From IMG/VR virus record IMGVR_UViG_3300045972_000789, positions 1 to 51,686 of that record: DNA of 51,686 nucleotides; one strand, written 5' to 3'. Of this stretch, positions 1 to 51,224 are shown piece by piece. Positions within the stretch are counted from its first letter, which is position 1. The number at the start of each line of letters is the position of its first letter. A model generated the notes under the pieces. The model was not told the DNA's origin, did no database searches, and worked only from the letters and a program-made list of their open reading frames with translations. A program made the position numbers and the translations under genes. The stretch is from a virus.

Positions 1-1338
1 ATGAACGGGGCTGGTGACAAATTGGTGACAAACGGCAAGGGAACCCAAAACGCCCGTCCCCGCAAGGGCGGCAAGGCGGGTCCCATCGCCACGGTCAAAT
101 TCGGATCGGCCTCCGTGCCCATCTACCTATCGGAATCTAAGGGGCGGAAGCGCTACTTCATCGCCCACTACCGCGACGGCAAGCGCTTGCGCCAGGCATT
201 TGCCGATCTCGCAGCCGCGAAAAAGGAGGCCTTGTTCGTGGCGCAGCGAATCCAGTCCGGCATGCAGCATGTCACGGACATCAAACCGCATGAGCGCGAA
301 AACTACGTCGCGGCGATGCGGTTACTTGAAAAATCGGGCATCCCCCTGGTGGCGGCGGTCGAGGATTACATGCGTGCCCGTGACAAGGCCGGCACCGAGT
401 CGTTGACGGCGATGGCCGACGATTACGGCAGGTTGTTCAAAAAGGTGGTGCGCAACACCTCCACCGCCGACGTCGTGGCCGAGATGCTCAAGCAGCGCGA
501 ACAGGACGGCGCGAGCAAAGTCTATCTGAAGTTGCTGAAAACCACCTTGAATCGCTTTGCCGCCAAGTTCCCCGGCGAACTGATGGAAGTGGACACCCAC
601 CAGATCGACGCCTGGCTCCGGTCGCTCGACGTGAAACTCTGCACGCGCAACTCGATGCTGCGCTGCATCAAGATTTTCTTCTCGTATGCCCGCAGCCGCA
701 ATTACCTGCCCGAGGAACGGAAAACGGCGGCTGAGAATTTAAGGATTTCCAAGGTGGTCACTGACAACATGGAAATCTTCACCCCCGAGACGATGGCGCG
801 GATCCTGCACCACGCTCCCCCTTCCCTGATCCCGATCCTTGCCATCGGCGCGTTCTCCGGCATCCGCATGGCCGAACTCAATCGGCTCGATTGGTCCGCC
901 GTGGATCTGGAACGTCGGATTATCGAACTCCGCGCCGGACAAGCCAAGACCGGCTCACGCCGCGTCATTCCGATCACCGACAACCTCGCCGCATGGCTGG
1001 AGCCGCTTGAACGTAAGGGCATGGTGGTGCCCACGGTCAAGAGCGATCACCGCGCCGTCTCCGCCCTGGCTGCATCACTGAATCTCGAATGGCCGCGCAA
1101 CGTACTCCGGCATTCCTTCATCAGCTACCGGATCGCCACGGTGAAGAGCGCGGATCAGGTCGCGCTTGAAGCGGGCAATTCCCCATCCATCATCTTCAAG
1201 AATTACCGCGAGCTCACGACCGAGGAGCAGGCAAACAAGTGGTTTGCCATCCTGCCCAACGAAAGCCAGGGGGATAACCCGCCCCCCTTCGTCAGAAAGA
1301 GACGCCGTGCGACAACGCGACGCCAGGGCACGAAGTGA
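1..1338 (+). CDS. int: Tyrosine recombinase (phage integrase)
   Basis: A 445-residue site-specific recombinase that would catalyse prophage integration and excision. The N-terminal ~110 residues look like an arm-binding region, residues ~115-245 like a SAM-like core-binding domain, and residues ~260-410 hold the catalytic domain. Visible catalytic residues are R289 (SGIRMAE), K316 (AKTGSR), R370-H371 (NVLRHSF) and the nucleophile Y402 (KNYREL). The first position of the HxxRH box is N367 instead of His, and the later His/Trp position is also Asn (GNS, N393). The window begins exactly at this ATG, so its promoter and the attachment site are not visible. The length and the absence of an IntI-type insertion argue against an integron integrase. 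Confidence 0.92.
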   Translation: MNGAGDKLVTNGKGTQNARPRKGGKAGPIATVKFGSASVPIYLSESKGRKRYFIAHYRDGKRLRQAFADLAAAKKEALFVAQRIQSGMQHVTDIKPHERENYVAAMRLLEKSGIPLVAAVEDYMRARDKAGTESLTAMADDYGRLFKKVVRNTSTADVVAEMLKQREQDGASKVYLKLLKTTLNRFAAKFPGELMEVDTHQIDAWLRSLDVKLCTRNSMLRCIKIFFSYARSRNYLPEERKTAAENLRISKVVTDNMEIFTPETMARILHHAPPSLIPILAIGAFSGIRMAELNRLDWSAVDLERRIIELRAGQAKTGSRRVIPITDNLAAWLEPLERKGMVVPTVKSDHRAVSALAASLNLEWPRNVLRHSFISYRIATVKSADQVALEAGNSPSIIFKNYRELTTEEQANKWFAILPNESQGDNPPPFVRKRRRATTRRQGTK

Positions 1339-1340
1339 TT

Positions 1341-1440
1341 CCGTTCAATCCGCGCGCCAACGGTGGTTGTTGGACGCGGATGGTGCATGAGAGGATCGGC
1401 CATATTGCCCTACCAGCCGGGGGCGCAACGAGCTCCTACG
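1341..1440 (+). repeat. Dispersed structured repeat R1, copy A
   Basis: Starts 2 nt after the integrase stop. The first 25 bases (CCGTTCAATCCG... to AACGGTG) match 26456-26480 with two differences, and the block CGCGGATGG to CATATTGC is again nearly identical to copy B. Copy A can fold as a nested hairpin: ATCCGCG pairs with CGCGGAT around CCAAC/GTTGG. Both full copies directly follow a gene. Function unknown. Confidence 0.6.
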
Positions 1441-1454
1441 CGTATCCACACGCA

Positions 1455-1494
1455 AAATCCGGGGCATGGAAGAGAACTCCCCTACCCCGGATTT
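1455..1494. terminator. Stem-loop between convergent genes
   Basis: A perfect 10-bp stem AAATCCGGGG / CCCCGGATTT with a 20-nt loop lies between the rightward integrase and the leftward small membrane gene. A short T run follows on both strands (ATTTG / ATTTTG), so it could end transcription in both directions, although neither U-tract is strong. Confidence 0.5.
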
Positions 1495-1521
1495 GTGATG
1501 CCCGAAAAATGGTGTGCCCGC

Positions 1522-1713
1522 TCAGCCCGTGAAACTGGCGTTCGGTTTGCCGTCGTCGAGCAGGTCACCGATGCGGTTCACGGCGTCCTTGAGGATCGAG
1601 GCGGCGGCGAAAATGACCACGCCGACCGTGGGGTCAACGAACGGGATCACGTTGAAGGCCGACACGAAGCCCGCGAGTTTGCCGACGAAGCTGAGGTATT
1701 TGAGTGCTTTCAT
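1522..1713 (-). CDS. Small hydrophobic membrane protein (phage, unknown; possible holin)
   Basis: Sixty-three residues, largely hydrophobic from residue 6 to 45 (YLSFVGKLAGF ... VGVVIFAAASI), followed by a charged tail (RIGDLLDDGKPN). This would allow one or two membrane segments. The ATG at 1713 is preceded by GTTGAC with a 17-nt gap, the same arrangement as in many structural genes here, so it belongs to the phage transcription programme. It is the last gene of the leftward late region and is separated from the next phage gene (4179-4367) by inserted cassettes. Size and position suit a holin-like protein, but no family was recognised. Confidence 0.55.
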   Translation of the reverse strand: MKALKYLSFVGKLAGFVSAFNVIPFVDPTVGVVIFAAASILKDAVNRIGDLLDDGKPNASFTG

Positions 1714-1730
1714 GGTGGCCGGGGCGCGGT

Positions 1731-1736
1731 GTCAAC
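1731..1736 (-). promoter_or_regulatory. Start-proximal GTTGAC element (gap 17 to ATG 1713)
   Basis: Read on the minus strand, GTTGAC is followed by 17 nt and the ATG. No Shine-Dalgarno is visible in the gap. The rest of 1714-1926 shows no gene; a weak rightward promoter-like pair (TTGACC, 18 nt, TGTAAC) ends near 1915 and might serve the cassette array. Confidence 0.6.
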
Positions 1737-1926
1737 GATGGCAGGGAATGCAGCGGGCAGGATCATGACTGTCCGGGGAAACTCCTCCTTCCAAGCTTGC
1801 GGGGGCCGATCTGGCCATGATAGACAGGGTCCATGAAAACGGACCGATTAGCGCCGGTGAACGCCGTCTGCCTTTCCGGGTCGCCTTTGACCCTGATCAA
1901 CGACCGATCGTGTAACACCCCCCAAA

Positions 1927-1957
1927 CCCGACCGGTCGGGTAATACTACTGTTGGGC
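1927..1957 (+). other. Left boundary of cassette array (palindrome plus GTTGGGC core site)
   Basis: A perfect 14-bp palindrome, CCCGACCGGTCGGG (1927-1940), is followed by GTTGGGC (1951-1957), which fits the integron recombination core GTTRRRY and abuts the first cassette ATG. No clear matching RYYYAAC box lies upstream. It may be an attI-like or degenerate attC site. Confidence 0.4.
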
Positions 1958-1958
1958 C

Positions 1959-2534
1959 ATGAAAACAAAATTTCTCGCGCTTACCACAATAGCAACTCTA
2001 TTGCTCGTGTCATGCCGCCATCATATGAGCGAGGGAATTGCGTCGTTCACCGCTAATCTTTCTTCAGTTTCTGCCGCATCTGCTTTTCAAATGGATCTCT
2101 CGGCATTTCTGAAACGAAATCAATTCCATCCAACAACCGCGAATTTCCTAGATTTTCCGGCAAAGGATGACGGTGATTTTGAATCCTCTTTTTCAGGCTC
2201 ATATAGCGGATCGAAACCATTTACCCTTCGAATGATTAGAACGAAGCGAGGAGATCACTATGCGGTTCATGCATTTATCGAATGGCACGTTTACGGATTC
2301 GAATCCGACATCCAAAATATGAAACAGAAAGTAAATGAATTTTCCAAGGCGCTCGATCAACTTGCTAACAAACGGCCCAACCAGGCGCTGCACACCAACG
2401 GCTCTCCGGGCGGGTTGTTTAAGAGTGCGGTCATAGCTTCATCGGCTCAGTCACGGATGCTGCTTCCGCAGCCTCCGCGCCTTCGCCTTTCCCCGTTGTG
2501 CTGCCACCTGCCGCTTCCAGAGAGCCGTGGGTGA
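1959..2534 (+). CDS. Cassette gene 1: small lipoprotein of unknown function
   Basis: The product starts with a lipoprotein signal (LLLVSC, lipidation Cys19) and continues as a polar, low-GC protein without a recognised domain. It would be a secreted, membrane-anchored protein. The ATG follows the GTTGGGC core directly. The reading frame stays open into the attC-like site that begins at 2375, so the last ~50 residues (from PNQALHTNG on) are encoded by the recombination site itself; the biological protein may effectively end near residue 140. It points opposite to all neighbouring phage genes and its AT-rich codons differ from theirs. Confidence 0.6.
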   Translation: MKTKFLALTTIATLLLVSCRHHMSEGIASFTANLSSVSAASAFQMDLSAFLKRNQFHPTTANFLDFPAKDDGDFESSFSGSYSGSKPFTLRMIRTKRGDHYAVHAFIEWHVYGFESDIQNMKQKVNEFSKALDQLANKRPNQALHTNGSPGGLFKSAVIASSAQSRMLLPQPPRLRLSPLCCHLPLPESRG

Positions 2535-2548
2535 GCTTGGCGTTCGAC
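2375..2548 (+). other. attC-like recombination site 1
   Basis: Left box GCCCAAC and right box GTTCGAC enclose a long imperfect palindrome. The reverse complement of the right arm (GCCAAGCTCACCCACGGCTC) aligns with the left arm (CAGGCGCTGCACACCAACGG CTC). Length is about 174 bp, at the long end for attC sites. The next cassette ATG follows 6 nt after the right box. Confidence 0.6.
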
Positions 2549-2554
2549 AGACAA

Positions 2555-2995
2555 ATGAAAACAAGCCCTCTCTTCGCTGTCAGTGCATTGGTGCTGGCTG
2601 GATGCGCATCAGTTGAACCGCCAAAGTCGACGGCGCAGCCATTCGCGGTTCTTTATGGCGCGCGTAAAGCGCAGTGGCTAAGTAATTACCAGAAGGGCGC
2701 CTTCTCCCATAAGAATGATTCCGTTTCCTTCCACGACATCGAGATTAGCGGATTTCCGAACTTAGATTCACAGAATCAAAAGCTTTATCTAGTGGTTCGA
2801 TTATGCACCCATCAGTCCGGCAACGCTGAAGATGGCAGTCAGATGTTGAGACTCATTTCTGCGCTAAAGTGCTCTAAAAAAGAACTGACACAATACATTG
2901 AGTCTTTGGATAGAACGGCTCTAAAAATGTATGCATCAGCCCTCCACGGATCAATCGAGCAATTCGACATCAACCGTCGTATCTACCTCCAATAA
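2555..2995 (+). CDS. Cassette gene 2: small lipoprotein of unknown function
   Basis: A 146-residue product with a clear lipoprotein signal (MKTSPLFAVSALVLAGC, Cys17), hence probably a periplasmic-facing lipoprotein. The rest is polar with three further Cys residues (LCTHQ and LKCSKK regions) and no recognised domain. The ATG at 2555 was preferred over an upstream start at 2498, because the latter would add residues encoded by the preceding attC-like site. The stop lies 4 nt before the next left box, the tight packing expected of an integron cassette. Confidence 0.65.
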   Translation: MKTSPLFAVSALVLAGCASVEPPKSTAQPFAVLYGARKAQWLSNYQKGAFSHKNDSVSFHDIEISGFPNLDSQNQKLYLVVRLCTHQSGNAEDGSQMLRLISALKCSKKELTQYIESLDRTALKMYASALHGSIEQFDINRRIYLQ

Positions 2996-2999
2996 AGAA

Positions 3000-3091
3000 G
3001 TCGAACAATTCACTCCTGCCGACAGCCATCAGCCCCACAAACTCCAACCCCAAGCTTCCCTGCCGCGCTGCGGCAGAGTGAGGCGTTCGGC
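3000..3091 (+). other. attC-like recombination site 2
   Basis: Left box GTCGAAC (3000-3006) and right box GTTCGGC (3085-3091). The arms pair well: TTCACTC with GAGTGAG and CTGCCG with CGGCAG, with an unpaired base that could be an extrahelical base. At 92 bp it is a typical attC length and the best example in the window. Confidence 0.75.
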
Positions 3092-3114
3092 AGAAAAGAG
3101 AAAAGCAAAACACC

Positions 3115-3510
3115 ATGAAACGCACCATACCCCACATCATCACGGCCTTGGTATTCCTGACGGCCGGGTACATCGCGGGCAGCTTCCGTTCCACCCGCCA
3201 AGCAGCCATAGGATCAAATGCAAATAGTCTCATTTGGCTGACTGGAATCCATGAGATGATCTCCAAGGGAGACCATAAAAGAGCAAAAGAGATTACAGAA
3301 TCAGCCGTGGATGCTCATGTAGCTGTCCTCGCTCAAGTCCAGCGAGATCCCGCGGCGACGTTAGTATGGATGATCCCTTGGACACCAGACATTGTTGGTC
3401 AGGTCACACCCAATGCGCTGAAGCGAGCGAATGATTATTTTGTAGGAAGGACTGATGTTCTTAAGCCCGAGACCAGGGAATTTCTTACAGCAACCCAGCA
3501 ATCCAAATAG
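3115..3510 (+). CDS. Cassette gene 3: membrane-anchored small protein
   Basis: A 131-residue protein with one N-terminal membrane segment (IPHIITALVFLTAGYIAGSF, about residues 4-23) after a short KR start. The remainder is a soluble domain with helical character (HKRAKEITESAVDAHVAVLAQ). No family recognised. It lies between two attC-like sites in the cassette orientation, and the stop codon overlaps the next left box. Confidence 0.65.
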   Translation: MKRTIPHIITALVFLTAGYIAGSFRSTRQAAIGSNANSLIWLTGIHEMISKGDHKRAKEITESAVDAHVAVLAQVQRDPAATLVWMIPWTPDIVGQVTPNALKRANDYFVGRTDVLKPETREFLTATQQSK

Positions 3511-3604
3511 CCGAACAAGGCGCCGCTGACCGACCGGCATGAGCCACGCAATTTCAACCTCAACCACGATGCCCTGCGCCCGGCGGCAGGGCTAGTCGTT
3601 CGGC
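3510..3604 (+). other. attC-like recombination site 3
   Basis: Left box GCCGAAC (3510-3516) and right box GTTCGGC (3598-3604) are perfect complements. The inner arms pair only partly. The central part (CACGCAATTTCAACCTCAACC) resembles the matching part of site 2 and of the site at 38485-38571, which suggests one attC family. Confidence 0.7.
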
Positions 3605-3608
3605 AGAA

Positions 3609-4049
3609 ATGAAAAAAGGACGCATAGCACTTGTGGTGGCTCTGGTGGCTTTGTTCCTGGTAGTCTTACAGAATAGATTGAACTTTTGGGGCTATTTGCC
3701 TGATAACGTGCCAGTCACCAGATGTATCGGCTTGAAGCCAGTTCTGGACAAGAAGCGGGAGCGATTCAACAGAGATACGGTCAGGAATCTCGTGTATCAG
3801 AATGAGTCTTCGGATCCGCTGTTTTACTCCAATATAGTCCAAAAGGTCGAGGCGTGTGATTGGATCAAGTCTAAAGACTTTATTAGGCGAGAGGATATTG
3901 ATGGTGACAGATTCGCGCTGGCAGGCAGTCCCTACCGAGACGGCGCATGGCGCGAGAAGACTGCGTTCATATCGAAGAATTGGAGTTTTCAGTGCGTGAT
4001 TTACGACGGCACCGATTTTGTGCTAGTCGTCCTGACCGCCCGGTATTGA
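3609..4049 (+). CDS. Cassette gene 4: membrane-anchored small protein
   Basis: A 146-residue protein with a KKGR start and a hydrophobic segment at about residues 6-21 (IALVVALVALFLVVLQ), so a signal anchor or uncleaved signal. The soluble part contains Cys residues in the TRCIG, EACDW and FQCVI contexts. No recognised domain. The ATG is 4 nt after the core GTTCGGC and the stop is 8 nt before the next left box. Orientation is opposite to the flanking phage genes. Confidence 0.65.
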   Translation: MKKGRIALVVALVALFLVVLQNRLNFWGYLPDNVPVTRCIGLKPVLDKKRERFNRDTVRNLVYQNESSDPLFYSNIVQKVEACDWIKSKDFIRREDIDGDRFALAGSPYRDGAWREKTAFISKNWSFQCVIYDGTDFVLVVLTARY

Positions 4050-4057
4050 ATCTGTAA

Positions 4058-4153
4058 GCCGAACAATTCGTGGATGACAACCCCTCATAAGCTCCTCAAT
4101 CTCATTTCAAAGGCATCTCCATGGCGGGGTTTTCATCACTTTTGACGTTGGGC
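4058..4153 (+). other. attC-like recombination site 4 (right end of array)
   Basis: Left box GCCGAAC (4058-4064) and right box GTTGGGC (4147-4153). GTGGATGACAACCCC pairs with GGGGTTTTCATCAC apart from small bulges. Length is 96 bp. No further cassette follows; leftward phage sequence resumes within 26 bp. Confidence 0.7.
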
Positions 4154-4178
4154 GCCGGTCATCGGTAGACTTGAATGT

Positions 4179-4367
4179 TCACTTCCGCCGCATCTTCCGC
4201 ACCATGCTCACCAGCGACATGATGCCGACTGCCAGGCCGATCAGCAGCGAGGCCATCCGCAGGTGCCATTCGATTTGTTCCTGATACGACGTAACGAGGC
4301 CAACCAGCGGCGAGGCCATTCCGATGAAGGCTTTGCTGACGTAGTCGAGGTCGATGGGCTGGTTCAT
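4179..4367 (-). CDS. Holin-like small membrane protein
   Basis: Sixty-two residues with two hydrophobic stretches (FIGMASPLVGLVTSY and MASLLIGLAVGIMSLVSM) and a basic C-terminus (VRKMRRK). This pattern fits small phage holins, which permeabilise the inner membrane for the endolysin. The ATG is 12 nt after the stop of the gene at 4380-4775, so it is probably co-translated. The endolysin lies far away (20895-21470), so the assignment rests on sequence character only. Confidence 0.45.
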   Translation of the reverse strand: MNQPIDLDYVSKAFIGMASPLVGLVTSYQEQIEWHLRMASLLIGLAVGIMSLVSMVRKMRRK

Positions 4368-4379
4368 GGAGTTGGATGT

Positions 4380-4775
4380 TCAGTTAGGTACGATGGCGTT
4401 TCCCCATGCGTCAAAACCATCAGCGGGAGGCGTGATCGAAAGCGGTTGACCCTCCACCTCCACAAATGCTCGGCGTGGTTCATAGAATGCAGGTGGTATC
4501 AGATCATTCAGCGTCCGCCCCGCGAGTTCCGCCAGCCCCGCAATATGCCGCAGGTTCTCCCGGCTTGCTGCCAGGAACAGTCTGGCATTGTCATCGCCAA
4601 TGGCCACGAGCAGTTCATCCGGCGTGACTAGTGGATCACACCAGAAGGCGCGGTAGTTCTCGACATGGTTGACCACGCGGGCTTGCAGCGTTAGGTTGAG
4701 GTTGGCAAGGATTGCAGTGGCTACAGTCTGTGGGTAAGGGATCGGCGCTGGCTGTGGAACGGTGAATAGGTTCAT
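4380..4775 (-). CDS. Phage tail-region protein of unknown function
   Basis: A 131-residue protein starting MNLFTVPQPAPIPYP. A central segment (LLVAIGDDNARLFLAASRENLRHIAGLAE) looks helical and the C-terminus is proline-rich. The ATG at 4775 is preceded by a CA-rich leader without a Shine-Dalgarno. It follows the large tail protein by 32 bp and precedes the holin-like gene. No family recognised; position suggests a tail-fibre accessory or lysis-associated protein. Confidence 0.5.
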   Translation of the reverse strand: MNLFTVPQPAPIPYPQTVATAILANLNLTLQARVVNHVENYRAFWCDPLVTPDELLVAIGDDNARLFLAASRENLRHIAGLAELAGRTLNDLIPPAFYEPRRAFVEVEGQPLSITPPADGFDAWGNAIVPN

Positions 4776-4807
4776 GTTGTTATGTGGGTTGGTTATTGGA
4801 AGAAATA

Positions 4808-6895
4808 TCAGGTTGCGGTCAGGTCGCCGGAAAGGAGCCATTCCGTATCTCCGGTGCGGGTAATCGTGACCACTCCACCCGCTGTCGAGCATTTGGTCCA
4901 ACCGCTTTTTGATTTGATCGTGCAGCCTGCCGCAGTGATGGTGAAAGGGGAGGCTGCCCATGCGTAAATCCGGCATTCAAAGGGTTCACCAGAAGCTAAG
5001 TCCGTTGGAACGGTGTAGGTTTGGGTCGCGCCGTTGGCTCTTATGATCCGTCCGCGATGCGCTCTGGTTAGATTCAGCGTGGCGTTTGTTCCAGAAACGG
5101 ATTGCAGCAGCGAGGTGAACCCCGAAACCCATGCGCTTCCCGTATATGTTCTGTAAATGGGAGTCAGTCCAACGCCTTTTGAATTGTCGGCGAAGGTGGC
5201 GCAGAAGGTGTTAGGAATAACACCATAGCTATCCCCGGCTACCAAGTAAGAGGACATGCTAGCGGGCCTGCCCGATGGATCGGTAAAGGTGCAATCCGCT
5301 GTCAGGACATACAAGCCGCCAACAACGGCGGTCTTTGTGGTTGCGACTGAGACAGGTGCGCCGATAGGGCTGGGCTGAAACAGTTGGGCGGGGATATTGC
5401 CGCCCAAATCCACAACGGTATAACCGAAAACTCCCCCGGACCGGGAAGAATCGCAACGCTTGAAGTAGGTTGTAGCGGACCCTCCGACGTTGTAGGTGAA
5501 GCCGGTAAATGTGACATCATACATATAGAAGGTCGTTGCCGGTGGCGGATTCACGGAACCGATGCCAAGGCAGGCCCCGCCCGTGATGTTGACTGATCCT
5601 GTTTTGCCCACAAACCCACCTCCCAAAGTGCTCGGCCCACCTTGCGAGACAACGGACGCCTCAATCCCTGATTGCGTTAGGTAAACTACGGGCGCATCCC
5701 CTCCCGGCACACTATTACCCGTTACCCCGGCGACTGTTAAAGCCAGCGAACAAAGCGTATGATGGTCGCCTCGCGCAAGCACGCGGACCTGTGTTGCTTT
5801 CTCGGTTAGGGTTAGTGTGTGCGCCCCGGTGCCAAGGTCTAGGATGTTGTAGATTTCCCCGCCCACTACCGCACAGATGGCCGCATAGGCGGCGGCAACC
5901 GTGGCGAAGGGCTTGGAGCGATCCCCGATTGCGGCGGTGGCGTCATTGCCACCTACCAGGCGGACAAAGGCCACCCTTGCGTCGGGGATGCTTTGCAACG
6001 CTGTGTCCGCCTTCCCTCCTTGTGCTGCGGTTGCGCCACCAATGGCGGTGAGCTGTGCAGCGGCAGTGGCAGCGGTCAACAAGGCGCGTCCGGCTGCGGT
6101 GCTGTCGGTGATGTCCGTGGCGGCAAGCCCAGCGTGCGGATCAGGGATATACTGCGCACCGATTTTACCGGCGACCGGGGAGGCTCCTTTGAGTTTGTCC
6201 AACACCAGATCGGTGTTCACCACCTCATCCACATCCACCGCATCAATCAAGGCCCATAGGTAGTCGGGCGCTCCCTCTTGGCACTTATACCAAGTGAACG
6301 GGGCGGTTGCCCCGGCGCGGTATTCCTGCCCCACGATCCCGACGGTCACACCATTCTCCGGGGCGAAAGCTCCCGTCACGGGAAGCGGGCGGCGTGAGTC
6401 CAGCCATTCATCGGGGCTCGGTTCCCCCAGTGGCGTTCCCTCGGTGCCGCGAATCACGTCGTTCTCGACGATCACAGCGAAGGTGCGCGTCGAAGTCGGC
6501 GGGCCACCGTTCACGCTCCACGAGATTTCACCGATCAGGGAAATTTCCGCCAGTTCGTTTTCCCCACCAATTCCAAGCGCGGCATTCAGGGTCTCGGTGT
6601 TGAAGCTGGGCGAGACGAGATAGGTGTTGTCGGTGGTCTCGGGATCGACTGATGGAAATGTCCAATCGACGGAATACACGAGATACTCGCCGCTGAAACC
6701 TCCCGGCAATTTGACCCCGAAGCCGATAGAAAGCACGTCGGGGCCGCCAATCTGGGTGGGGGTCGATCCGCCCGTTAGAAACTGGACTTGAAACTGGGCC
6801 GCGTCGCCGCGCTTGATCCTGATGGACTGGACCGGGTTGCGGAATCCCGGGCCTTCAATCAAGCGGAGCGTTTCGAGATCGACGTGGAGCTTCAC
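4808..6895 (-). CDS. Large tail protein, probable fibre or receptor-binding protein
   Basis: A 695-residue protein. The N-terminal ~250 residues form an apparent virion-attachment part (RIKRGDAAQFQVQFLTGG, then SVNGGPPTSTRTFAVIVEND). The middle is Ala/Gly/Thr-rich and repetitive (AGRALLTAATAAAQLTAIGGATAAQGG). The C-terminal ~90 residues (GRIIRANGATQTYTVPTDLA to WLLSGDLTAT) resemble compact beta-rich tips of phage receptor-binding proteins. GTG at 6895 is the chosen start because it lies 14 nt after a GTTGAC element. It sits downstream of the tail-tip genes where a fibre gene is expected. No chaperone or peptidase domain seen. Confidence 0.65.
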   Translation of the reverse strand: MKLHVDLETLRLIEGPGFRNPVQSIRIKRGDAAQFQVQFLTGGSTPTQIGGPDVLSIGFGVKLPGGFSGEYLVYSVDWTFPSVDPETTDNTYLVSPSFNTETLNAALGIGGENELAEISLIGEISWSVNGGPPTSTRTFAVIVENDVIRGTEGTPLGEPSPDEWLDSRRPLPVTGAFAPENGVTVGIVGQEYRAGATAPFTWYKCQEGAPDYLWALIDAVDVDEVVNTDLVLDKLKGASPVAGKIGAQYIPDPHAGLAATDITDSTAAGRALLTAATAAAQLTAIGGATAAQGGKADTALQSIPDARVAFVRLVGGNDATAAIGDRSKPFATVAAAYAAICAVVGGEIYNILDLGTGAHTLTLTEKATQVRVLARGDHHTLCSLALTVAGVTGNSVPGGDAPVVYLTQSGIEASVVSQGGPSTLGGGFVGKTGSVNITGGACLGIGSVNPPPATTFYMYDVTFTGFTYNVGGSATTYFKRCDSSRSGGVFGYTVVDLGGNIPAQLFQPSPIGAPVSVATTKTAVVGGLYVLTADCTFTDPSGRPASMSSYLVAGDSYGVIPNTFCATFADNSKGVGLTPIYRTYTGSAWVSGFTSLLQSVSGTNATLNLTRAHRGRIIRANGATQTYTVPTDLASGEPFECRIYAWAASPFTITAAGCTIKSKSGWTKCSTAGGVVTITRTGDTEWLLSGDLTAT

Positions 6896-6909
6896 GCTAA
6901 TTTCGCGCT

Positions 6910-6915
6910 GTCAAC
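6910..6915 (-). promoter_or_regulatory. Start-proximal GTTGAC element (gap 14 to GTG 6895)
   Basis: Lies between the stop of the upstream Cys-rich gene (6920) and a GTG start. It supports GTG at 6895 as the true initiator of the fibre-like gene. Confidence 0.6.
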
Positions 6916-6919
6916 CGCT

Positions 6920-7309
6920 TCACCATTTGCCGACCGGGCAATGCTGCGACCGCATGCGCGATTTCAACGCGGCGAAGCAGCCGCACAGAGAGCATCGGTT
7001 CTGGCCGTGGATGAAATTCTCGCACCCGCGGCAGATTGCCATCCTGCGCTCGATCTCCCCGGCGTCCAGTTTGGCGACGCCGGTTGCCCGCGCCACGACC
7101 TCGCCAACCGCCGCCCGCGCCAGGTTCACGGCCATCACCGACACCGGCGGCGGCGATTTCGGGCGGAATTGGTCGCGGAGCTCGGCCATGGCTTCGGCGT
7201 CGATTTCCAGCCATTCGCCATCCACCACGCCACGCGACAGCACCGCCTCGACGTATCCAGGCGGGCGTGACTGCGCGGCCTCGTAGATTTTTGAAATGCG
7301 GAGTTTCAT
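6920..7309 (-). CDS. Small Cys-rich phage protein with zinc-finger-like C-terminus
   Basis: A 129-residue protein whose C-terminal 40 residues carry a CxxC (CRGC), a CxxCxC (CSLCGC) and a CP motif before a terminal GKW. This would bind one or two metal ions. Similar short proteins ending in CPxGKW occur among phage tail-region genes; their role is unknown. The ATG at 7309 overlaps the upstream stop (ATGA), so translation is probably coupled. Confidence 0.6.
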   Translation of the reverse strand: MKLRISKIYEAAQSRPPGYVEAVLSRGVVDGEWLEIDAEAMAELRDQFRPKSPPPVSVMAVNLARAAVGEVVARATGVAKLDAGEIERRMAICRGCENFIHGQNRCSLCGCFAALKSRMRSQHCPVGKW

Positions 7310-8472
7310 GGCGCGGCGGCCTCCCATGTCGGGTCGGGAAATCCGTTAGGTTGTGGGTTTTCCTCGTCTGTGATGTCGGGCTCGTAGTCTTGAAGGAACG
7401 AGTATTTCAGAATCTCGACTGTTATGGTGGTGTGGTTCCCGTCTGACGTTGGAGGGTCCAGAGATCGCACATCTCCCCTGATGATATTGGATTCGCCGGT
7501 GACGCTTGATTCCGGGTCAGGCACGCACGGATTACCTGTGCCCACCCACTCGTAAGAACCGAACTCGTCGTCGTGCGTTATATCGTCGGGAACAGGAGGT
7601 TCTGAATAAGCGTAAACCACCTTGGTCGTTTTCCTTAGCCACACTTTCAGGTAGCAAGTCATGGAAGGCCCGTGCATCACGCGATATTGAGACGCGCTTG
7701 CGCTGACAGCCTGGGAGGATGTGCCGTTAAAATGGGATGAGGCAATATGCACCCCGGAAGAACCCCAGTCTGGAAACGCCTCGAACAACTCTGTCGGGTC
7801 ACACAAATCAGACGAGCAGTCTGAGTATTCAGTCGTTATGGGGGTGCCGTGCGTTTCTGTTACGTTGGGTTCGGGGTCATCAATGGAAGACCGGGCGCAC
7901 GTCCCGTGAGTGTATGCCGAGTTGTATAAAAACCCCGTGCATTTGTCCCCCGTGCAGGCACTCCATATCCCATTCGCTCCAAGCGTGTGAGCGCATGTGT
8001 GCCACTCCGTGTGGTGCGCCTGCTGGAACGTGACCGGATCGGTGATCCACACCTCCTCTGACCTCGTATAGGTGTGGCTCCCTGAATAATATTCAACCAA
8101 ATTGCAGAAGCTATTGGTTGGATCTGTCTCGTAAGTTGTGGTGTGGAGGAAGTAAGTGTCACACTTCGACACCATTACGCCGTTCGAGTCATTTGTCGTG
8201 ACGCTGTGACTGTATTCGTAGCTGGCGGTCCCTTCGCAATCGACGCTGGAATCGCAACTGCCGTCATCTTTCGTCGAGTAAGTTCTGGTGACGGTGTAGG
8301 CGTCTCCATACGTGTCCTTCTTGGTCCGGCAGTATTGCTTCGGGTTGTCACCGTCCACAACGGCATCGGGATCGGCCACCCCCGGAGTGCAGCAACGGCC
8401 AGACACGCTGCGCGTCTCCAGTGTAACCAATGGCACGAACGACTCGCAGCAGTTGCAGGCTTGATTGCTCAT
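7306..8472 (-). CDS. Cys-rich structural protein, tail tip candidate
   Basis: A 388-residue protein with about 20 Cys residues and an unusual excess of Thr, Ser, Tyr and Asp (for example TYGDAYTVTRTYSTKDDGSC). No transmembrane segment or known domain is visible. The composition suits a secreted or virion surface protein stabilised by disulfides or metal. The ATG at 8472 shares a base with the upstream stop (TAATG). It lies between the tail genes and the fibre-like gene. Function not recognised. Confidence 0.5.
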   Translation of the reverse strand: MSNQACNCCESFVPLVTLETRSVSGRCCTPGVADPDAVVDGDNPKQYCRTKKDTYGDAYTVTRTYSTKDDGSCDSSVDCEGTASYEYSHSVTTNDSNGVMVSKCDTYFLHTTTYETDPTNSFCNLVEYYSGSHTYTRSEEVWITDPVTFQQAHHTEWHTCAHTLGANGIWSACTGDKCTGFLYNSAYTHGTCARSSIDDPEPNVTETHGTPITTEYSDCSSDLCDPTELFEAFPDWGSSGVHIASSHFNGTSSQAVSASASQYRVMHGPSMTCYLKVWLRKTTKVVYAYSEPPVPDDITHDDEFGSYEWVGTGNPCVPDPESSVTGESNIIRGDVRSLDPPTSDGNHTTITVEILKYSFLQDYEPDITDEENPQPNGFPDPTWEAAAP

Positions 8473-9017
8473 TACGCGGACACGGTGATGCCATAGAACG
8501 GTGCCTCTGCGGCGAACCAGTTTCGGCAGACGAGGATGGAGATTGGGCCGCAAGCGTTTTGGGTGATGCCGCCTTCATCGTTCACCGTCCCTATCAGGAA
8601 ATAGATTGTCTCGTCGTCGGATTGCGCCTCATCGGGCTGTGCGATCACCTCGGACTCGTAGGTCCCGTCGCTGCCGTCAAAAGTGACCTGCAAATAGATC
8701 TTCATGCCATAGTTGGACGCCAGTGATCCAAGGTCGGTTTCGCTGATTGCGTCCTTCCCAGCGGTCCCCTCGCCAACAATTAGGGTGGGTTTGGTTTGCC
8801 CGTCGTCGATCCTCGTGAACACCCGGAATGATCCACACGACGGCGGGGCGTTGCTGGAGGGTGGCTTTTGCGCCCGGTAGGCGAACCCACCGGAGCTGAA
8901 TGTGAGTTCCATCCCGCTCGACGGGCGTGGTGTGCGGGCGGCCAGGGCGTCAATGAGCGCGTTCCAATCGCTGGCTAGGATCGGATTGCCGGGGCGTTTT
9001 TTCGGCGGGAGTCTCAT
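8472..9017 (-). CDS. Phage tail-region protein of unknown function
   Basis: A 181-residue protein starting MRLPPKKRPGNPILASDWNALIDAL, an opening seen in short phage tail-tip proteins with a helical segment followed by beta-rich sequence. The C-terminal half (KIYLQVTFDGSDGTYESEVI to GPISILVC) looks beta-rich. The ATG at 9017 is 4 nt after the upstream stop; a longer start at 9053 would overlap the previous gene. No family recognised. Confidence 0.55.
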   Translation of the reverse strand: MRLPPKKRPGNPILASDWNALIDALAARTPRPSSGMELTFSSGGFAYRAQKPPSSNAPPSCGSFRVFTRIDDGQTKPTLIVGEGTAGKDAISETDLGSLASNYGMKIYLQVTFDGSDGTYESEVIAQPDEAQSDDETIYFLIGTVNDEGGITQNACGPISILVCRNWFAAEAPFYGITVSA

Positions 9018-9021
9018 GGTG

Positions 9022-9750
9022 TTAGTGCGCGTAGATGTCCGGGTCCCAACCACCGCGGTCGCTTGCCAGCCATTCCCATTCGATGCGGAACGACCGGCCT
9101 TCCTGCGACTGGCTCACCCCGTTGAGAATCCAGTTTCGACCTGCCGCCAATCCGGGTGCGGGGCCGAACGGTGATGAAATCCTGCCGATGTTGTTGAGGT
9201 CGCCACCCGCAACGCCACTGTCACGGGTCAAGCTCACCCGCCATGTCACCTTGGGCGAGTAATAGGAGGTCTGCCCGCGCATGATCTTCCCGAGGGCTTC
9301 CTTGCCCATCGAGGATTTGACCTTGTCCTTGTAGGACGCGCCGGAGTCGTCCTTTTCCTTGCCGCTGGCGATGCCTTTCAGGGCCTCAAGTTCATTGTCC
9401 TCCAGATTCTTGTAGCGGACGTTGGCAAGCAATGGCTCCTCAGACAACGACAAGCCCATCGAATAGGTCAACGAATCCTGTTCCTGCTGCGGGGTCTTCG
9501 CCTCGGCCCCGGCGTAGTTGCAGGTGATTTCTGCCAGGTCGCCCTCGGTCACTTTTGCCGTGGCCGTGTCCACGGTGATGAACGACACCTCCGGGTGGGC
9601 GGTGCCGGGGCGCGGCATCAACTTGGTGATCGAGTTGCGGTGGCAGAGAAAAACCTGGGTGGCCGTCCACTTGCCCTCGCGGTCCACCGAAAGCGAATAG
9701 TCGGGTTGCGGATAGAGAACGCCCGGTTGGATTGAAACGTGATGCGGCAT
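9022..9750 (-). CDS. Tail protein of unknown function
   Basis: A 242-residue protein (MPHHVSIQPGVLYPQPDYSLSVDREGKW) with a mid-region rich in Lys and Glu (GKEKDDSGASYKDKVKSSMGKEAL) and a Trp-rich C-terminus (RIEWEWLASDRGGWDPD). Its position after the tape measure suggests a distal-tail or baseplate component. The ATG at 9750 has a GTTGAC element 17 nt upstream. The toxin-like gene pair at 9816-10738 separates it from the tape measure. Confidence 0.55.
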   Translation of the reverse strand: MPHHVSIQPGVLYPQPDYSLSVDREGKWTATQVFLCHRNSITKLMPRPGTAHPEVSFITVDTATAKVTEGDLAEITCNYAGAEAKTPQQEQDSLTYSMGLSLSEEPLLANVRYKNLEDNELEALKGIASGKEKDDSGASYKDKVKSSMGKEALGKIMRGQTSYYSPKVTWRVSLTRDSGVAGGDLNNIGRISSPFGPAPGLAAGRNWILNGVSQSQEGRSFRIEWEWLASDRGGWDPDIYAH

Positions 9751-9767
9751 CTTGGCCGGGACGCGAA

Positions 9768-9773
9768 GTCAAC
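9768..9773 (-). promoter_or_regulatory. Start-proximal GTTGAC element (gap 17 to ATG 9750)
   Basis: The element stands in the 65-bp space after the nucleotidyltransferase-like gene. The leader has no Shine-Dalgarno. Confidence 0.6.
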
Positions 9774-9815
9774 CGATTCGATAGATTCCTCCGCCCCAAC
9801 GGGAGTGACACCCCG

Positions 9816-10550
9816 TCAGGCATGGTCGGGCCAGGTCGAAGCAGCAAAAGCAGATAACCGGTCAAGACGGGATTCTATCATCTTGCGAATCGGAAACAGA
9901 CTTTCAGGGGTTGTTTCGATTAGTTTCAACGCCCGCCGGCAGCGGTTCAGGGAACAGAATTTGCGCAGCAGCTTGATTTCACGAATCAACTGCCTCTCGG
10001 TGATTTCACCAACCTTGGCGGTCCCGATTAGATTGGACAAGTGGGCGTGAAGAATCAGGCAAAGCATTCTCAGATGTTTTTCATCCTGCCGGTCGGTCTG
10101 GTCGAGATCGATGAGGCAATGGCATTTGCTCCTGAATAGATTCAAAGGGTCTAGCACGGTGATCCCGTTGAAGCGGTGCGCACGTTGCCGCAATACATCC
10201 ATTTCGCCCGGATTGATTCCGTAAACCCCGCTCATAAGGTCGATGGTTCGCGGGCTGTCTCCACCGGTGGTGAATATCCCGATTTGCCCGTCAGCCGGGG
10301 ATTTTCCCTTCAGAAGTCGCCCGCTTGCTTTAGACTGTAAATACCGCATTGCACCAATCCCGATCCAAACGTCACAATCCTTGGATGTGAAAGGAATGAA
10401 TTTCTGCAATCCCTTGGTCTTTGCATTGGCGGTGTAGTATTCGGCCCAGAAGTTTACCGCCTGACCACCTTCCAAAAAATAGCACTCCTCCGCCTTGTCG
10501 AGATCCTGCAAGAAGGCGAGATAGTCGAGTATGTTGGTTTCCCTTGGCAT
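9816..10550 (-). CDS. Nucleotidyltransferase-fold protein (AbiEii-like toxin candidate)
   Basis: A 244-residue protein with the start of a nucleotidyltransferase fold: FLEGGQAVNFWAEYY (glycine-rich loop followed by helix) and FTSKDCDVWIG (DxD-type acidic pair). This is the pattern of AbiEii/MenT-type enzymes that modify tRNA ends in toxin-antitoxin or phage-defence systems. The remainder is helical with a basic tail. The start shares a base with the stop of the 62-residue gene upstream, giving a two-gene unit inserted between tape measure and tail genes. It lacks a GTTGAC leader, unlike its neighbours. Role in superinfection immunity or maintenance is inferred. Confidence 0.6.
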   Translation of the reverse strand: MPRETNILDYLAFLQDLDKAEECYFLEGGQAVNFWAEYYTANAKTKGLQKFIPFTSKDCDVWIGIGAMRYLQSKASGRLLKGKSPADGQIGIFTTGGDSPRTIDLMSGVYGINPGEMDVLRQRAHRFNGITVLDPLNLFRSKCHCLIDLDQTDRQDEKHLRMLCLILHAHLSNLIGTAKVGEITERQLIREIKLLRKFCSLNRCRRALKLIETTPESLFPIRKMIESRLDRLSAFAASTWPDHA

Positions 10551-10738
10551 CAGCGGCCCACGACTTCCGACAGATTTGAAATCTTTGCCTTTTTGAAGAA
10601 ATCGGCGGGAAAAATCGAGTTTTCGCGCTGAAGGGCCGCCGGACTTTCGCCTTTTGCAAGACGCATGCGATCTTCCCTACGCGCAGCGCTTTTGGCTGCT
10701 ACTCGCGAGGAACGGTTGGCGCTGCTGGCAACTTTCAT
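10550..10738 (-). CDS. Small basic partner of the nucleotidyltransferase (antitoxin candidate)
   Basis: Sixty-two residues, strongly basic at the N-terminus (SRVAAKSAARREDRMRLAKGESP), then QRENSIFPADFFKKAKI. Small proteins with a RENSIFP-like motif directly upstream of nucleotidyltransferase genes are familiar to me, but I cannot verify the family here. The stop overlaps the next start (TGATG). A promoter-like TTGACT with ATTTAT 17 nt downstream lies at about 10822-10793 just upstream, so the pair may have its own promoter. Confidence 0.5.
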   Translation of the reverse strand: MKVASSANRSSRVAAKSAARREDRMRLAKGESPAALQRENSIFPADFFKKAKISNLSEVVGR

Positions 10739-10815
10739 GGGAACAAGGCTTGCTACAGGCGATTTGTAACGCTGGGCAGTGGAGGATTCAAATAAATTCA
10801 GACGATCAGCCTTGA

Positions 10816-10821
10816 GTCAAC
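10816..10821 (-). promoter_or_regulatory. GTTGAC element at the tape measure stop
   Basis: Here the TGA inside GGTTGACTC is the tape measure stop codon and no start codon follows within 20 nt. It may be a relic of the leader of the tail gene now at 9750, displaced when the toxin-like pair was inserted, or serve as a -35 box for that pair. Confidence 0.35.
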
Positions 10822-12571
10822 CGAACGCCGCCTGCGTGCCGCCGCCGAGCTTCTCAATCCTGCTGCTCATGTCCTTGAGTAACCGGTTGGTTTCGCCCGT
10901 TAGACGGTTATTTTCGCGCTGGGCGTCCAGGGTGCCGGACGAATACCCGCCGCCGCCAACTTTCCCAAGCGACGTGACAATTGGATCTAGGCGGGCGGAT
11001 TGCGTGGACACACCCGGTCCCGTGCCGGTGGTTTGGCCGGCAGCAGATGCCGCCTGCTTCACCGCCTCGGGTTTGGGCATCGAATCGCGGATCGAACCCA
11101 CCACGTTGTTGATGCTGTCGCGCAGCGCGCTGGTGTCGATGAAGTCCGGCGACGTGGACCGGCCTGCCGCTCGCCCCGCAGCCGCCACACTATCCGCCAG
11201 TCCGGCCGCGCCCGACGTCATCAGCCCTTGCGCGTCTTTCTCGGCCGCATCCGTGTTGACGCCGAAGATGCTGGCCCCCGCTTCCTTGTTGCGTTTGAGG
11301 ATGTTGTCGAAATTCGCCTCCACGTCGTCGGGCTCAAATCCTAGCAGGTCGCTCATGCCGGGGATTTTCGCCAGCCCCCATAGCAGGGTGTTGACCACAT
11401 ACTCCATGCCCGCCTGGAGATAGATCAGGGGAGTTTGGAATGCGCTGAGTAGTGCCGCGCCAAATCCTGCCACCACTCCTAGCAGGATCGTTCCCAACCC
11501 TTTCCACATCGCCCCGTCGGTGAGCAGGTTCCAGAAGAATGACAGTGCCATTTCAAACCCCTTGATGAGCGAGTTGATGCCTACGGTGAAGGCGAGTTGC
11601 AGGCAGGACGAAACCAGTTCGAGGACCTGCCCGCTCTTGAATGTGGCGATGACAAACATGATGGCGTCCTTGATCCGGTTGCCCGCTTCGGCGGCGAGGG
11701 GCGTGAGCGTGGATACAAGTCCGATGGCTTCCGCGACTAGCGGGCGGATCGCGTCGTTGATCGGTTGGCCGAGTGATAGAAACACCCCGTTGACCGAATC
11801 TTTGAGCGTCGAGAACAGGCCGCTGGTCGTTTTGCTCTGCGCCTCCATCATGCCCGAAAATTTGCCGCCCTTGGATGTCATGTCGATGAACGCCTTCTCG
11901 ATCTGCGGGAATCCTACCTTGCCGGATTCGACCAGTTTCCTCACCTGGGATTCGTTGATGCCAAACTGTTTGGCGAGTTCTTGAATGATCGGGATGCCCC
12001 GGCCTGTTAGCTGGTTCACGTCCTCGGCAAACAAGCGCCCCTGGACCCGCGCCTTGCCGTAGATTTCGGCGATTTCACCGATGGGTGCCTGGATGCCCGC
12101 CGACACGTCGCCAATCCGCCGCAGGGTGGCGGGCACTGTGTTGGCTGACTCACCGAAGGCGATCAACTTGCGGGCCGCATCGGCTACCTCGGGAAACTGG
12201 AAGGGCGTTTCGTCAGAAAACTTGCGGAGCTTGGCCAGCGTCTGCTCGGCCTTGGCCGCGTCACCGATCAGGGTGGTGAATGCCACTTTTGTCTGCTCAA
12301 AGTTAGCGGCGGATGTGACTGCCTTCACCCCGAGTCCCATCGCTGCCGCTCCACCGGCCAATGCCGCGCCGATTCCCGCCTTGAGCGCAATGCCCGTGAC
12401 AGCAAACCCTTTGGTCAACGCCGCCGCACCGCCTTTGCCGAGTCCTGCCAGTCCCGCACCCGTCATGTGACTCATGCGGCGGGCCGACGCGCTAACAAGT
12501 TCGGTGGCCCCCGCCATGGCCCGCTTCAACGCGGTGATGTCGGCTCCAAGGGTGACGGTCAGGGCGCTCAT
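10817..12571 (-). CDS. Tail tape measure protein
   Basis: A 584-residue protein that sets tail length and is ejected at infection. Residues ~85-290 match the conserved N-terminal tape measure domain (TLIGDAAKAEQTLAKLRKFS, then AEIYGKARVQGRLFAEDVNQ and LTGRGIPIIQELAKQ). Two hydrophobic stretches follow (about 300-400), one with long alternating Ala/Gly/Leu. The C-terminus is Gln/Ser-rich and basic. The short length suggests a siphovirus with a rather short tail. The ATG at 12571 overlaps the stop of the chaperone extension and has a GTTGAC element 14 nt upstream, located inside the C-terminal codons of that extension. Confidence 0.88.
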   Translation of the reverse strand: MSALTVTLGADITALKRAMAGATELVSASARRMSHMTGAGLAGLGKGGAAALTKGFAVTGIALKAGIGAALAGGAAAMGLGVKAVTSAANFEQTKVAFTTLIGDAAKAEQTLAKLRKFSDETPFQFPEVADAARKLIAFGESANTVPATLRRIGDVSAGIQAPIGEIAEIYGKARVQGRLFAEDVNQLTGRGIPIIQELAKQFGINESQVRKLVESGKVGFPQIEKAFIDMTSKGGKFSGMMEAQSKTTSGLFSTLKDSVNGVFLSLGQPINDAIRPLVAEAIGLVSTLTPLAAEAGNRIKDAIMFVIATFKSGQVLELVSSCLQLAFTVGINSLIKGFEMALSFFWNLLTDGAMWKGLGTILLGVVAGFGAALLSAFQTPLIYLQAGMEYVVNTLLWGLAKIPGMSDLLGFEPDDVEANFDNILKRNKEAGASIFGVNTDAAEKDAQGLMTSGAAGLADSVAAAGRAAGRSTSPDFIDTSALRDSINNVVGSIRDSMPKPEAVKQAASAAGQTTGTGPGVSTQSARLDPIVTSLGKVGGGGYSSGTLDAQRENNRLTGETNRLLKDMSSRIEKLGGGTQAAFG

Positions 12572-18131: not shown

Positions 18132-18145
18132 GCCCGGTGGGCGGT

Positions 18146-18151
18146 GTCAAC
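18146..18151 (-). promoter_or_regulatory. Start-proximal GTTGAC element (gap 14 to GTG 18131)
   Basis: Supports a GTG initiator for the protease. The inserted cassette-like DNA begins just upstream of it, so the insertion left the element intact. Confidence 0.6.
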
Positions 18152-18283
18152 GCGGATAGGATGATCGCAGACCGAAAGAATGGGGTTGTCGCGAAGCGGG
18201 TAAAACGCTAGAAACGATTGTCTTGCAGCGCTTGTTTGAGCGTCGGAAGACGAAGTCTGCCCTTCCGGGCGGCTTTTGCACCT

Positions 18284-18290
18284 GTTCGGC
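18284..18290 (+). other. GTTCGGC core site left of a single cassette-like gene
   Basis: GTTCGGC matches the right box of the attC-like sites at 3085 and 3598 and lies 22 nt before the + strand lipoprotein ATG. No clear partner box is seen upstream. The stretch 18200-18283 holds short hairpins only (AGACGAAGTCT; GCCCTTCCGGGC). Confidence 0.4.
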
Positions 18291-18312
18291 GGAAAAACAA
18301 CACCATATCCCT

Positions 18313-19032
18313 ATGTCTAGACAGATTCACTACATTCTTGTGCTCTGCATCCTCTCGTCGGCATGCGATCGCCGAGAAGATTCAAAGTCAGGAATCTCAA
18401 CGGAGACAGCGTCTATTGCATCGGCAAGGGACGATGAGACAATGCTACGCGAGGAGATAGGAAAAGGACTAGAGGAGTATTTGAACGTTATTTCGATACC
18501 CTCGGGGGAGATCGAGATCATGAGCGGATTAAGTTCCCAGATGGAGGCCAATAATTTCCAATCAAAGCGTTTCAAGAGTGATTATCTCAGCTTTCTTGAC
18601 AGCATTAAGTCGAACGGGTTATTGACCTATGCTGAGAAGCCTCAGTCTGCTCTTGAGGAAGTAGGTCGCGTGGGCGCGAAGACTTTTGTTGTTTCTCCAA
18701 CAGAACTGGCGCTTCAGCACCGCGATCAGAAACTCTCGACTGCTGACTATGTTCAGATCCGCATTGCGACCTGCAAAGTCGAGAGCATCATCCGGAGCAC
18801 GCCGTATGAGTCGCCCCGCTTGCCGCAGTCTGAGGAATATCGGCTAGTTCTTGGCACCTACTATTGCAAGGGCATTCCATGGGCTCGAGACGCGATTCCG
18901 GGAGGCAAGGACGACACCTTCAAGTTTCGGGCTGTCCTCAAACTGAATCCATTTACTAAGCGTTACACGTTTCAATTCGCTGACTGGGGTTATCCAATTG
19001 AGGACGGGTGGAAGTCCAATAATGTGGAATAA
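18313..19032 (+). CDS. Cassette-like gene: lipoprotein of unknown function
   Basis: A 239-residue protein with a lipoprotein signal (ILVLCILSSAC, Cys18). It then has a Ser/Asp/Glu-rich linker and a globular domain without recognised motifs (LGTYYCKGIPWARDAIPGGKDDTFKFRAVLKL). It lies in opposite orientation between portal and protease, which are normally adjacent, so it is an insertion. Its AT-rich codons differ from the phage genes. The GTTCGGC core upstream and GTAGAAC (19039-19045) just after the stop suggest an integron cassette whose distal attC arm is degenerate. ATG 18313 chosen because it starts the signal peptide. Confidence 0.55.
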   Translation: MSRQIHYILVLCILSSACDRREDSKSGISTETASIASARDDETMLREEIGKGLEEYLNVISIPSGEIEIMSGLSSQMEANNFQSKRFKSDYLSFLDSIKSNGLLTYAEKPQSALEEVGRVGAKTFVVSPTELALQHRDQKLSTADYVQIRIATCKVESIIRSTPYESPRLPQSEEYRLVLGTYYCKGIPWARDAIPGGKDDTFKFRAVLKLNPFTKRYTFQFADWGYPIEDGWKSNNVE

Positions 19033-19156
19033 TCAGAAGTAGAACAAGACGAGCCACAGAAACCGCCACTAGCTGCCTTGTCGTCAACATCACCCGTATC
19101 ACGCCCCTCAACTCCCGTATCAACGCTCGCCACCGCTGGTATCCCACGAAACGGAG

Positions 19157-20614
19157 TTAAGGTTGCGAACCGCGCGCCGCATTATCGCCCTGCGCTTTTT
19201 CCGGAATCTGTTGGACGGTGCCACCTGACGGCTTCCACAGCATGTCCACCGGCACGCCGAACTTGGTAGCCGTTTCCAGAATCAGCTTCGCATCACTGGC
19301 GCGGCGTTCGATTTCCTCGCCGAAGTCTGCGCCAAGCTCTGCGTAATGGTCTGATAGGGTTTTCAGGCCCATCTCCACATCCGAGCGGTTCTGTTGGGCT
19401 TCCCGGCCAGCGTCCACAGTCACACGGCGCGGCGGAACTGTGGAAATCTTCCACCACCCGGCGATGGGCGGCAGAAGTCCGCGGTCGATGGCGTCACCGA
19501 TCACATAGGCCCACACCGGGCGGATGAGGCGGCGTTCAAGGATCATCTGGCGGAATGAGAACCGGCGATCCGCTTTAGCCACGATCAGCCGCACGCCCGC
19601 GCCGCCGACCTTGCTGGAATCCGCAGCGAACTCGAACGGGATGAATCCCAACGCCGAATCCCGCCGCAGGTGTTCCAGGAAACCGGTGAAGGTGGGTGAC
19701 GGGCGGTTGGACTGAAAGCTGTCGAGCGACTCGTCGGGCTTGAGGGCCACCAGCTTGCCGCCGACGATTTTCTGGAGCGATACCGGATCGCTCGTCTCGT
19801 TGTTAGCACCTGGTTGCCCGACCACGAAGTCGCCGTTGTCGTCGAGCTCGCCCCGGGCCGTCTTGAGGATGCGCGACACGTCCGCGTTGTCTTTCACCGC
19901 GTGTTTTTCGAGGGCGAGCAATTCGATTTCGTCGAGAATATGGTTGATCGAGTGCTGAAGCGTCGGATGCGATCTAACACCACCGGCCCATTCCGGCTCG
20001 AACAGATGCAGTAGCGATTTGGAAGGGATGTCGCGGGTTTTCCCGTCATCTTCTACCACCCGATAGAATACCGGCGCGCCCCAGGCGTCGAGTCCCACGC
20101 CATCGATGGTTTCCTTCGCGCCGAATGCGTCACCAATCCGGTGGGATTCGATCAACTGGATGCGCGGCTCGCCATCTGCGTCGCGGGTCTTGTGAATGAA
20201 ATACTCACCGTCGATGTCGATGCCCCGGCAGACAATCGACTGGCATTCCTCGAACGAAAACCGCCGGGTGACCTCACAACGGGCAGCCCACAGGGCAAAG
20301 TAGTCCTCGGCGGCGCGGTTCCATGTGGGATTGCCGGATTGCGCCTGGACACGGATACCGTCGCCGGTGGAATAGATCGCCATGTTGGCGACCAACTCTC
20401 TAACAAACCCACTGTTTTTGTGGAGGTAGCGCGACTTGCGAACCAGTTCGGCGCGGACACCCGGCGTGAGTTCGTTGCGTGAATCGGTTGGCGCGGACCC
20501 CGGCACCGTGCCTCGGCGGGGCGACCAGTTAGCCGCCTCAAATGGCGATCCCCATGCTTTAGGGACGAGAACCGGGGGCAGCAATCGTAGGGCGATATTT
20601 TTGAGACTGATCAT
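19157..20614 (-). CDS. Portal protein (lambda family)
   Basis: A 485-residue portal, the dodecameric DNA entry channel. Lambda-family signatures include NWSPRRGTVPGSAPTDSRNEL near the start, RKSRYLHKNSGFVRELVANMAIYSTGDGI, the clip/wing region FFRVVEDDGKTRDIP-like strands (PVFYRVVEDDGKTRDIPSKSLLHLFEPEWAGGVRSHPTLQHSINHI) and the stem helix region RDSALGFIPFEFA. The ATG at 20614 overlaps the upstream stop (AAATGATC). Upstream residues from 20704 would be read from the gpW gene and were rejected. The gene ends at TAA 19157, with the cassette-like insertion following. Confidence 0.88.
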   Translation of the reverse strand: MISLKNIALRLLPPVLVPKAWGSPFEAANWSPRRGTVPGSAPTDSRNELTPGVRAELVRKSRYLHKNSGFVRELVANMAIYSTGDGIRVQAQSGNPTWNRAAEDYFALWAARCEVTRRFSFEECQSIVCRGIDIDGEYFIHKTRDADGEPRIQLIESHRIGDAFGAKETIDGVGLDAWGAPVFYRVVEDDGKTRDIPSKSLLHLFEPEWAGGVRSHPTLQHSINHILDEIELLALEKHAVKDNADVSRILKTARGELDDNGDFVVGQPGANNETSDPVSLQKIVGGKLVALKPDESLDSFQSNRPSPTFTGFLEHLRRDSALGFIPFEFAADSSKVGGAGVRLIVAKADRRFSFRQMILERRLIRPVWAYVIGDAIDRGLLPPIAGWWKISTVPPRRVTVDAGREAQQNRSDVEMGLKTLSDHYAELGADFGEEIERRASDAKLILETATKFGVPVDMLWKPSGGTVQQIPEKAQGDNAARGSQP

Positions 20615-50737: not shown

Positions 50738-50839
50738 TCCGCCGCATTGTTCAATCAATTGAGGATATGGGCATCGGACTTGAACATACATTAAATATTT
50801 GCTTGCATTTTATTGATATACGGGCCAGTTTTTCTGGTC

Positions 50840-51136: not shown

Positions 51137-51224
51137 GGGGAGTTCCGTCCGCGTTGTCGATTCATAACGGCATGGCAAATTGATTGCCATGCAACTTGTC
51201 GTCCATCATGTTAGAAATATAGCA

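Follow-up and report, generated by a model that had tools for sequence, protein, structure and literature searches.

How does an array of gene cassettes come to lie in the genome of a phage that has no integron integrase? The question is raised by a 51,686-nucleotide virus record from IMG/VR, in which a first-pass annotation had described four small genes separated by attC-like sites as an integron-like array. Here the window means this whole stretch of 51.7 kb. We consider it probable (about 0.75) that the feature is an integron lacking only the integrase gene intI: a Pc-like promoter, an attI of the Akkermansiaceae type and four cassettes, carried by a temperate phage and presumably loaded in trans by the integron integrase (IntI) of the host. 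It is read as an integron without only intI because an attI and a Pc-like promoter head the four-cassette array. The observations behind this reading are the identity of the attC and attI sites, an insertion slot that is conserved yet empty in some relatives, gene content that differs from slot to slot, and IntI in many hosts.

The phage and the site of the array

The window is the complete virus record. It opens with the start codon (ATG) of a phage tyrosine integrase (phrog_1, E 1.7e-23) that falls far under the IntI cut-off. Other phage genes in the record are terminase, portal, capsid, head protease, tape measure and replication genes. This full phage gene set surrounds the array, and the slot was also seen in other viral contigs. 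HNH-type and Vsr-like (very short patch repair) nuclease genes were recognised by eye at the right end (49742-51686). The features around the array are as follows.

1-1338, + strand: phage tyrosine integrase
1522-1713, - strand: phage gene A (63 aa), bounding the slot on the left
1797-1826, + strand: Pc-like promoter, TTGCGG-N18-TAGACA, read by eye
1867-1957, + strand: attI, core GTTGGGC at 1951-1957, by host-attI HMM
1952-2542, + strand: cassette 1; lipoprotein ORF 1959-2534, reading through attC1 (2375-2548, E 2.5e-3); boxes GTTGGGC 1951 and GCCCAAC 2375
2543-3085, + strand: cassette 2; lipoprotein ORF 2555-2995, attC2 (3000-3091, E 5.4e-10); boxes GTTCGAC 2542 and GTCGAAC 3000
3086-3598, + strand: cassette 3; membrane-anchored ORF 3115-3510, attC3 (3510-3604, E 9.3e-13); boxes GTTCGGC 3085 and GCCGAAC 3510
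3599-4147, + strand: cassette 4; membrane-anchored ORF 3609-4049, attC4 (4058-4153, E 2.3e-9); boxes GTTCGGC 3598 and GCCGAAC 4058
4179-4367, - strand: phage gene B (62 aa), bounding the slot on the right

Relatives were recovered by searches with gene A and the integrase. In GTDB, the genomes with a related integrase are nearly all verrucomicrobial MAGs, mostly named Akkermansiaceae, Akkermansia, Verrucomicrobiaceae or Prosthecobacter. Gene A is present in 33/260 family genomes and is 75-89% identical in aligned relatives. On sequence evidence the phage is a temperate phage of freshwater Akkermansiaceae, "freshwater" being read from isolate names. A tRNA-Lys(CTT)-like sequence, read by eye immediately upstream of a related phage integrase (L002, 1-130), is a probable attachment site. 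Searches with the tail gene and its neighbours found no close relatives in viral contigs, positions 1-12000 of the window had no DNA match among phages, and the array DNA had none among plasmids.

The array lies 0.6 kb from the integrase and near the contig end, as might be expected of an assembly chimera or of host chromosome taken for virus. Either is very improbable, since phage genes lie on both sides of the array and the attI-bearing slot occurs in many independent genomes and in the IMG/VR viral contig L227.

attC sites and cassettes

An attC covariance model (A3) was built from 16 host-chromosomal attCs taken from loci adjoining intI, with the R''/R' pairs added by hand. RNAalifold gave these 16 sites a stem of 13 pairs, 13/13 of which covary. 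When run over the whole window, this host-only model matched all four sites proposed from the sequence at first reading, with the E values listed above, and there was no fifth match anywhere in the 51.7 kb up to E 10. Reverse-complementing R'' gives exactly the left border box in 4/4 cassettes. The model score of attC1, whose loop is long, is weak. The boxes had been described as RYYYAAC-type, which holds for GCCCAAC. The other three R'' boxes (GTCGAAC and, twice, GCCGAAC) are not strict RYYYAAC because they have G at the fourth position. With four attCs and no intI in the record, the array belongs to the CALINs (at least two attC sites, no nearby intI); the attC-bearing cassettes of a complete integron are also present, as four model matches with paired boxes. 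Rfam returned neither attC nor any other relevant family.

Stem-loops at gene ends, as these palindromes are, could also be transcription terminators of phage morons. This has next to no probability given the conserved box-stem-loop-stem-box layout with bulges, the covarying stem, up to 96% identity to attCs of chromosomal arrays and the host-trained model, which contradicts it.

DNA searches of the 260 family genomes found attCs elsewhere in the host family that are 96% identical to attC4 and 94% identical to attC2. In the same search, with two candidates per genome scored, no gene-level or flanking-gene match to the window cassettes was found. Because attC matches reach 96% without a gene-level match, the window attCs are host-type attCs around other genes. 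Proteins of cassettes 1 and 2 had no match among the 260 genomes, and the cassette 4 protein has a homologue (33%) in one host genome. The products were first described as small exported or membrane-anchored proteins, and the translations agree: two are lipoproteins by lipobox (LLLVSC in cassette 1) and two are membrane-anchored. Pfam assigned the cassette proteins to no family above cut-off.

attI and promoter

The 200 bp ahead of cassette 1 recur in the slot of related phages and, in host chromosomes, directly 3' of intI on the same strand. A role for this leader as a phage moron promoter was considered and dropped, since in host integrons the leader follows intI immediately, which identifies it as attI. 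An HMM trained only on 12 host attIs adjoining intI matched window positions 1867-1971 (E 4.5e-21), which supplies the attI of a complete integron, and matched none of 16 empty-slot loci. In the clearest host integron, L100, intI (216-1166) is followed by attI (1263-1394) and then eight chained attCs. In the alignment of attIs, CGACCGGTCGTGTAACACC and CGACCGGTCGTTCAATA stand out as direct repeats, and the core ACTGTT is conserved. A search of IMG/VR with an exact attI fragment gave no match. Phage and host attIs are interspersed in a tree that is short and weakly supported, with one well-supported phage-only group. Host genomes L218 and L220-L224 have an attI with no intI detected in the fetched stretch, two of them in tandem in L220, and solitary attIs may be common in the host family.

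Promoter-like hexamers occur at the position expected for Pc in the window; they are weak, and the automatic scan did not score them. By that scan, Pc is well conserved among hosts, where a TTGGCT-N17-TATCAA-like promoter precedes most attIs at a near-fixed distance, mostly 46-49 nt before the attI reference. Several sister phage slots have TTG..-17-TA.. about 60-62 nt before the reference, which is ~14 nt further upstream than in hosts. The first-pass annotation had overlooked the attI; with attI and a Pc-like promoter present, "integron-like" can be upgraded to an integron, on a temperate phage, from which intI alone is missing.

The slot between genes A and B in relatives

The array was thought to interrupt two leftward genes. 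Both proved intact, and the four rightward cassettes lie between them, against the direction of the late operon. In relatives with an empty slot, genes A and B are adjacent, 21-25 bp apart (L011, L013, L023, L028, L032, L146, L149, L160, L166, L169 and L182); empty slots also occur in viral contigs L226, L228, L231 and L233. The host-only HMM found attI in 11 further slots (L025, L031, L147, L150, L151, L152, L157, L161, L164, L171 and L227), and the combined HMM found one in the L049 slot (= L148). Slot attIs in relatives have the same orientation as in the window. attCs follow the slot attI in L049, L152, L157, L164 and L227. The slots of L005 and L007 hold single genes and no attI. The outcome named beforehand as refuting, no attC match and the same gene order without palindromes in relatives, is therefore the reverse of what was found: strong attC matches and relatives with an empty slot.

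Between slots the attC stretches alone are similar, and the cassette genes differ in every sampled slot. Because the relatives' slot holds different cassettes or none, phages may shuttle cassettes loaded by a host enzyme. The slot differences could instead reflect exchange between phages and host integrons by homologous recombination, acting at attI and the conserved flanks. One slot, that of L157 (479-3345), has a unit of attI plus gene three times in tandem, as well as a second copy of the 5' end of gene A. This arrangement points to homologous reshuffling, which could explain part of the turnover. The interspersed phage and host attIs also fit such exchange. The chained complementarity of R'' and left boxes is a signature of site-specific insertion, though it possibly predates capture. 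As an account of the slot differences in place of IntI acting in trans, homologous recombination seems rather doubtful to us. Since homologous reshuffling is visible in L157, the homologous and IntI routes may both act.

A second, decayed insertion

A second attI-gene-attC unit lies between the head protease and portal genes.

18232-18287, + strand: half attI, host-only attI HMM, E 2.3e-6
18313-19032, + strand: lipoprotein-like gene, recognised from sequence
19039-19145, + strand: truncated attC with the 3' arm partly deleted, by alignment; 83% identical over 99 bp to host locus L221

The matching stretch of L221 is a weak attC match of that locus, and attC model R1 did not find the remnant attC at 19039-19145. 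Judged by its sequence, the stretch 18145-19157 is a second integron-derived insertion, decayed. Both insertions in the window begin right after GGTGTCAACG (at 1729 and 18144), upstream of a leftward phage gene; GGTGTCAACG could act as a signal of the phage or mark a hotspot of recombination. In L055 the 5' end of the head protease gene is present three times (11767, 13199 and 14493), and these copies apparently flank inserted genes, as happens at the second insertion of the window.

The decay of this copy, half an attI and a truncated attC, raises the possibility that the main array is a passive relic as well. On this view a single event of illegitimate recombination brought it in from a host chromosome, no IntI would accept it as a substrate any longer, and its cassettes would be morons. 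The lack of intI in the phage is consistent with this, as are the slots of several relatives that contain single genes without recognisable attC. The attI core and attCs 2-4 of the main array are, however, intact and score like host sites, the paired boxes are perfect and the genes differ in every related slot, and for these reasons a relic appears unlikely.

Integron integrase in phage and host

No integron integrase had been noticed in the window, and none was found: the sole TIGR02249 match is the phage integrase, at 21 bits against a cut-off of 265. The window thus lacks the intI gene of a complete integron. Among the slots scanned for IntI, that of L030 alone carries one, right after gene A and diverging from the array (344.7 bits, cut-off 265). 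There the phage slot holds intI and a cassette array, after which come a transposase of the IS91 family and a tyrosine recombinase (1716-6919). No IntI remnants were seen between gene A and attI in six relatives.

Host genomes are rich in the enzyme, with IntI above the curated cut-off in 84/260 family genomes. At E 1e-50, IntI was detected in 24/33 family genomes with gene A and 69/227 without it (Fisher p 7e-6, ancestry ignored), a count that takes in the genome of L030, whose IntI occupies the phage slot itself.

If the array is an integron served by its host, IntI in the lysogen would recombine attCs at the prophage attI in trans, loading or swapping cassettes as expected from established integron biology. 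Pc would transcribe the cassettes rightward, independent of and opposite to the phage late genes. The cassette products may modify the lysogen envelope, and the phage would carry the cassettes into new hosts.

Relation to known systems

Integrons and CALINs in phages were described by Qi et al. 2023 (PMC9892861), who reported 17 CALINs and found that IntI1 used 5/6 tested attCs; the text makes no mention of Verrucomicrobia. Like those CALINs, the window has an attC array without intI in a phage genome, with cassettes in one direction. It differs from them in being headed by an attI and a Pc-like promoter, and in occupying a slot that is conserved family-wide with empty and refilled alleles. 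Shewanella prophage M16-3 (PMC9892861) also has an attI-headed CALIN inside a prophage. Unlike the window phage it is cryptic and also holds a complete integron, and it is an isolated example. Vibrio anguillarum phages p16 and p42 (PMC9892861) are temperate and carry parts of the host chromosomal integron; they carry intI and sit at the host integron, whereas the window array has no integrase and lies inside the late region. Treponema chromosomal integrons (PMC3607928) have intI and cassettes in the same direction, the layout of the host integrons here (intI towards attI). The present hosts, in contrast, are Akkermansiaceae, and the phage copy is without intI. Our literature search turned up no account of an attI platform that lacks an integrase and recurs across a phage family, in Akkermansiaceae.

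It is still asked how cassettes pass from one large chromosomal integron to another among environmental bacteria. The earlier proposal that phages carry them has rested mostly on single examples. In the present case a loading site recurs across a whole phage lineage, and its alleles are variously empty, filled or intI-bearing. We see roughly even odds that the phage family keeps an integrase-free attI/Pc platform at a fixed site, reshuffled by the IntI of each lysogen, and that the phage acts as a cassette shuttle between chromosomal integrons. Because the loading site recurs and the host family is rich in integrons, the borrowing of host IntI by prophages becomes directly testable.
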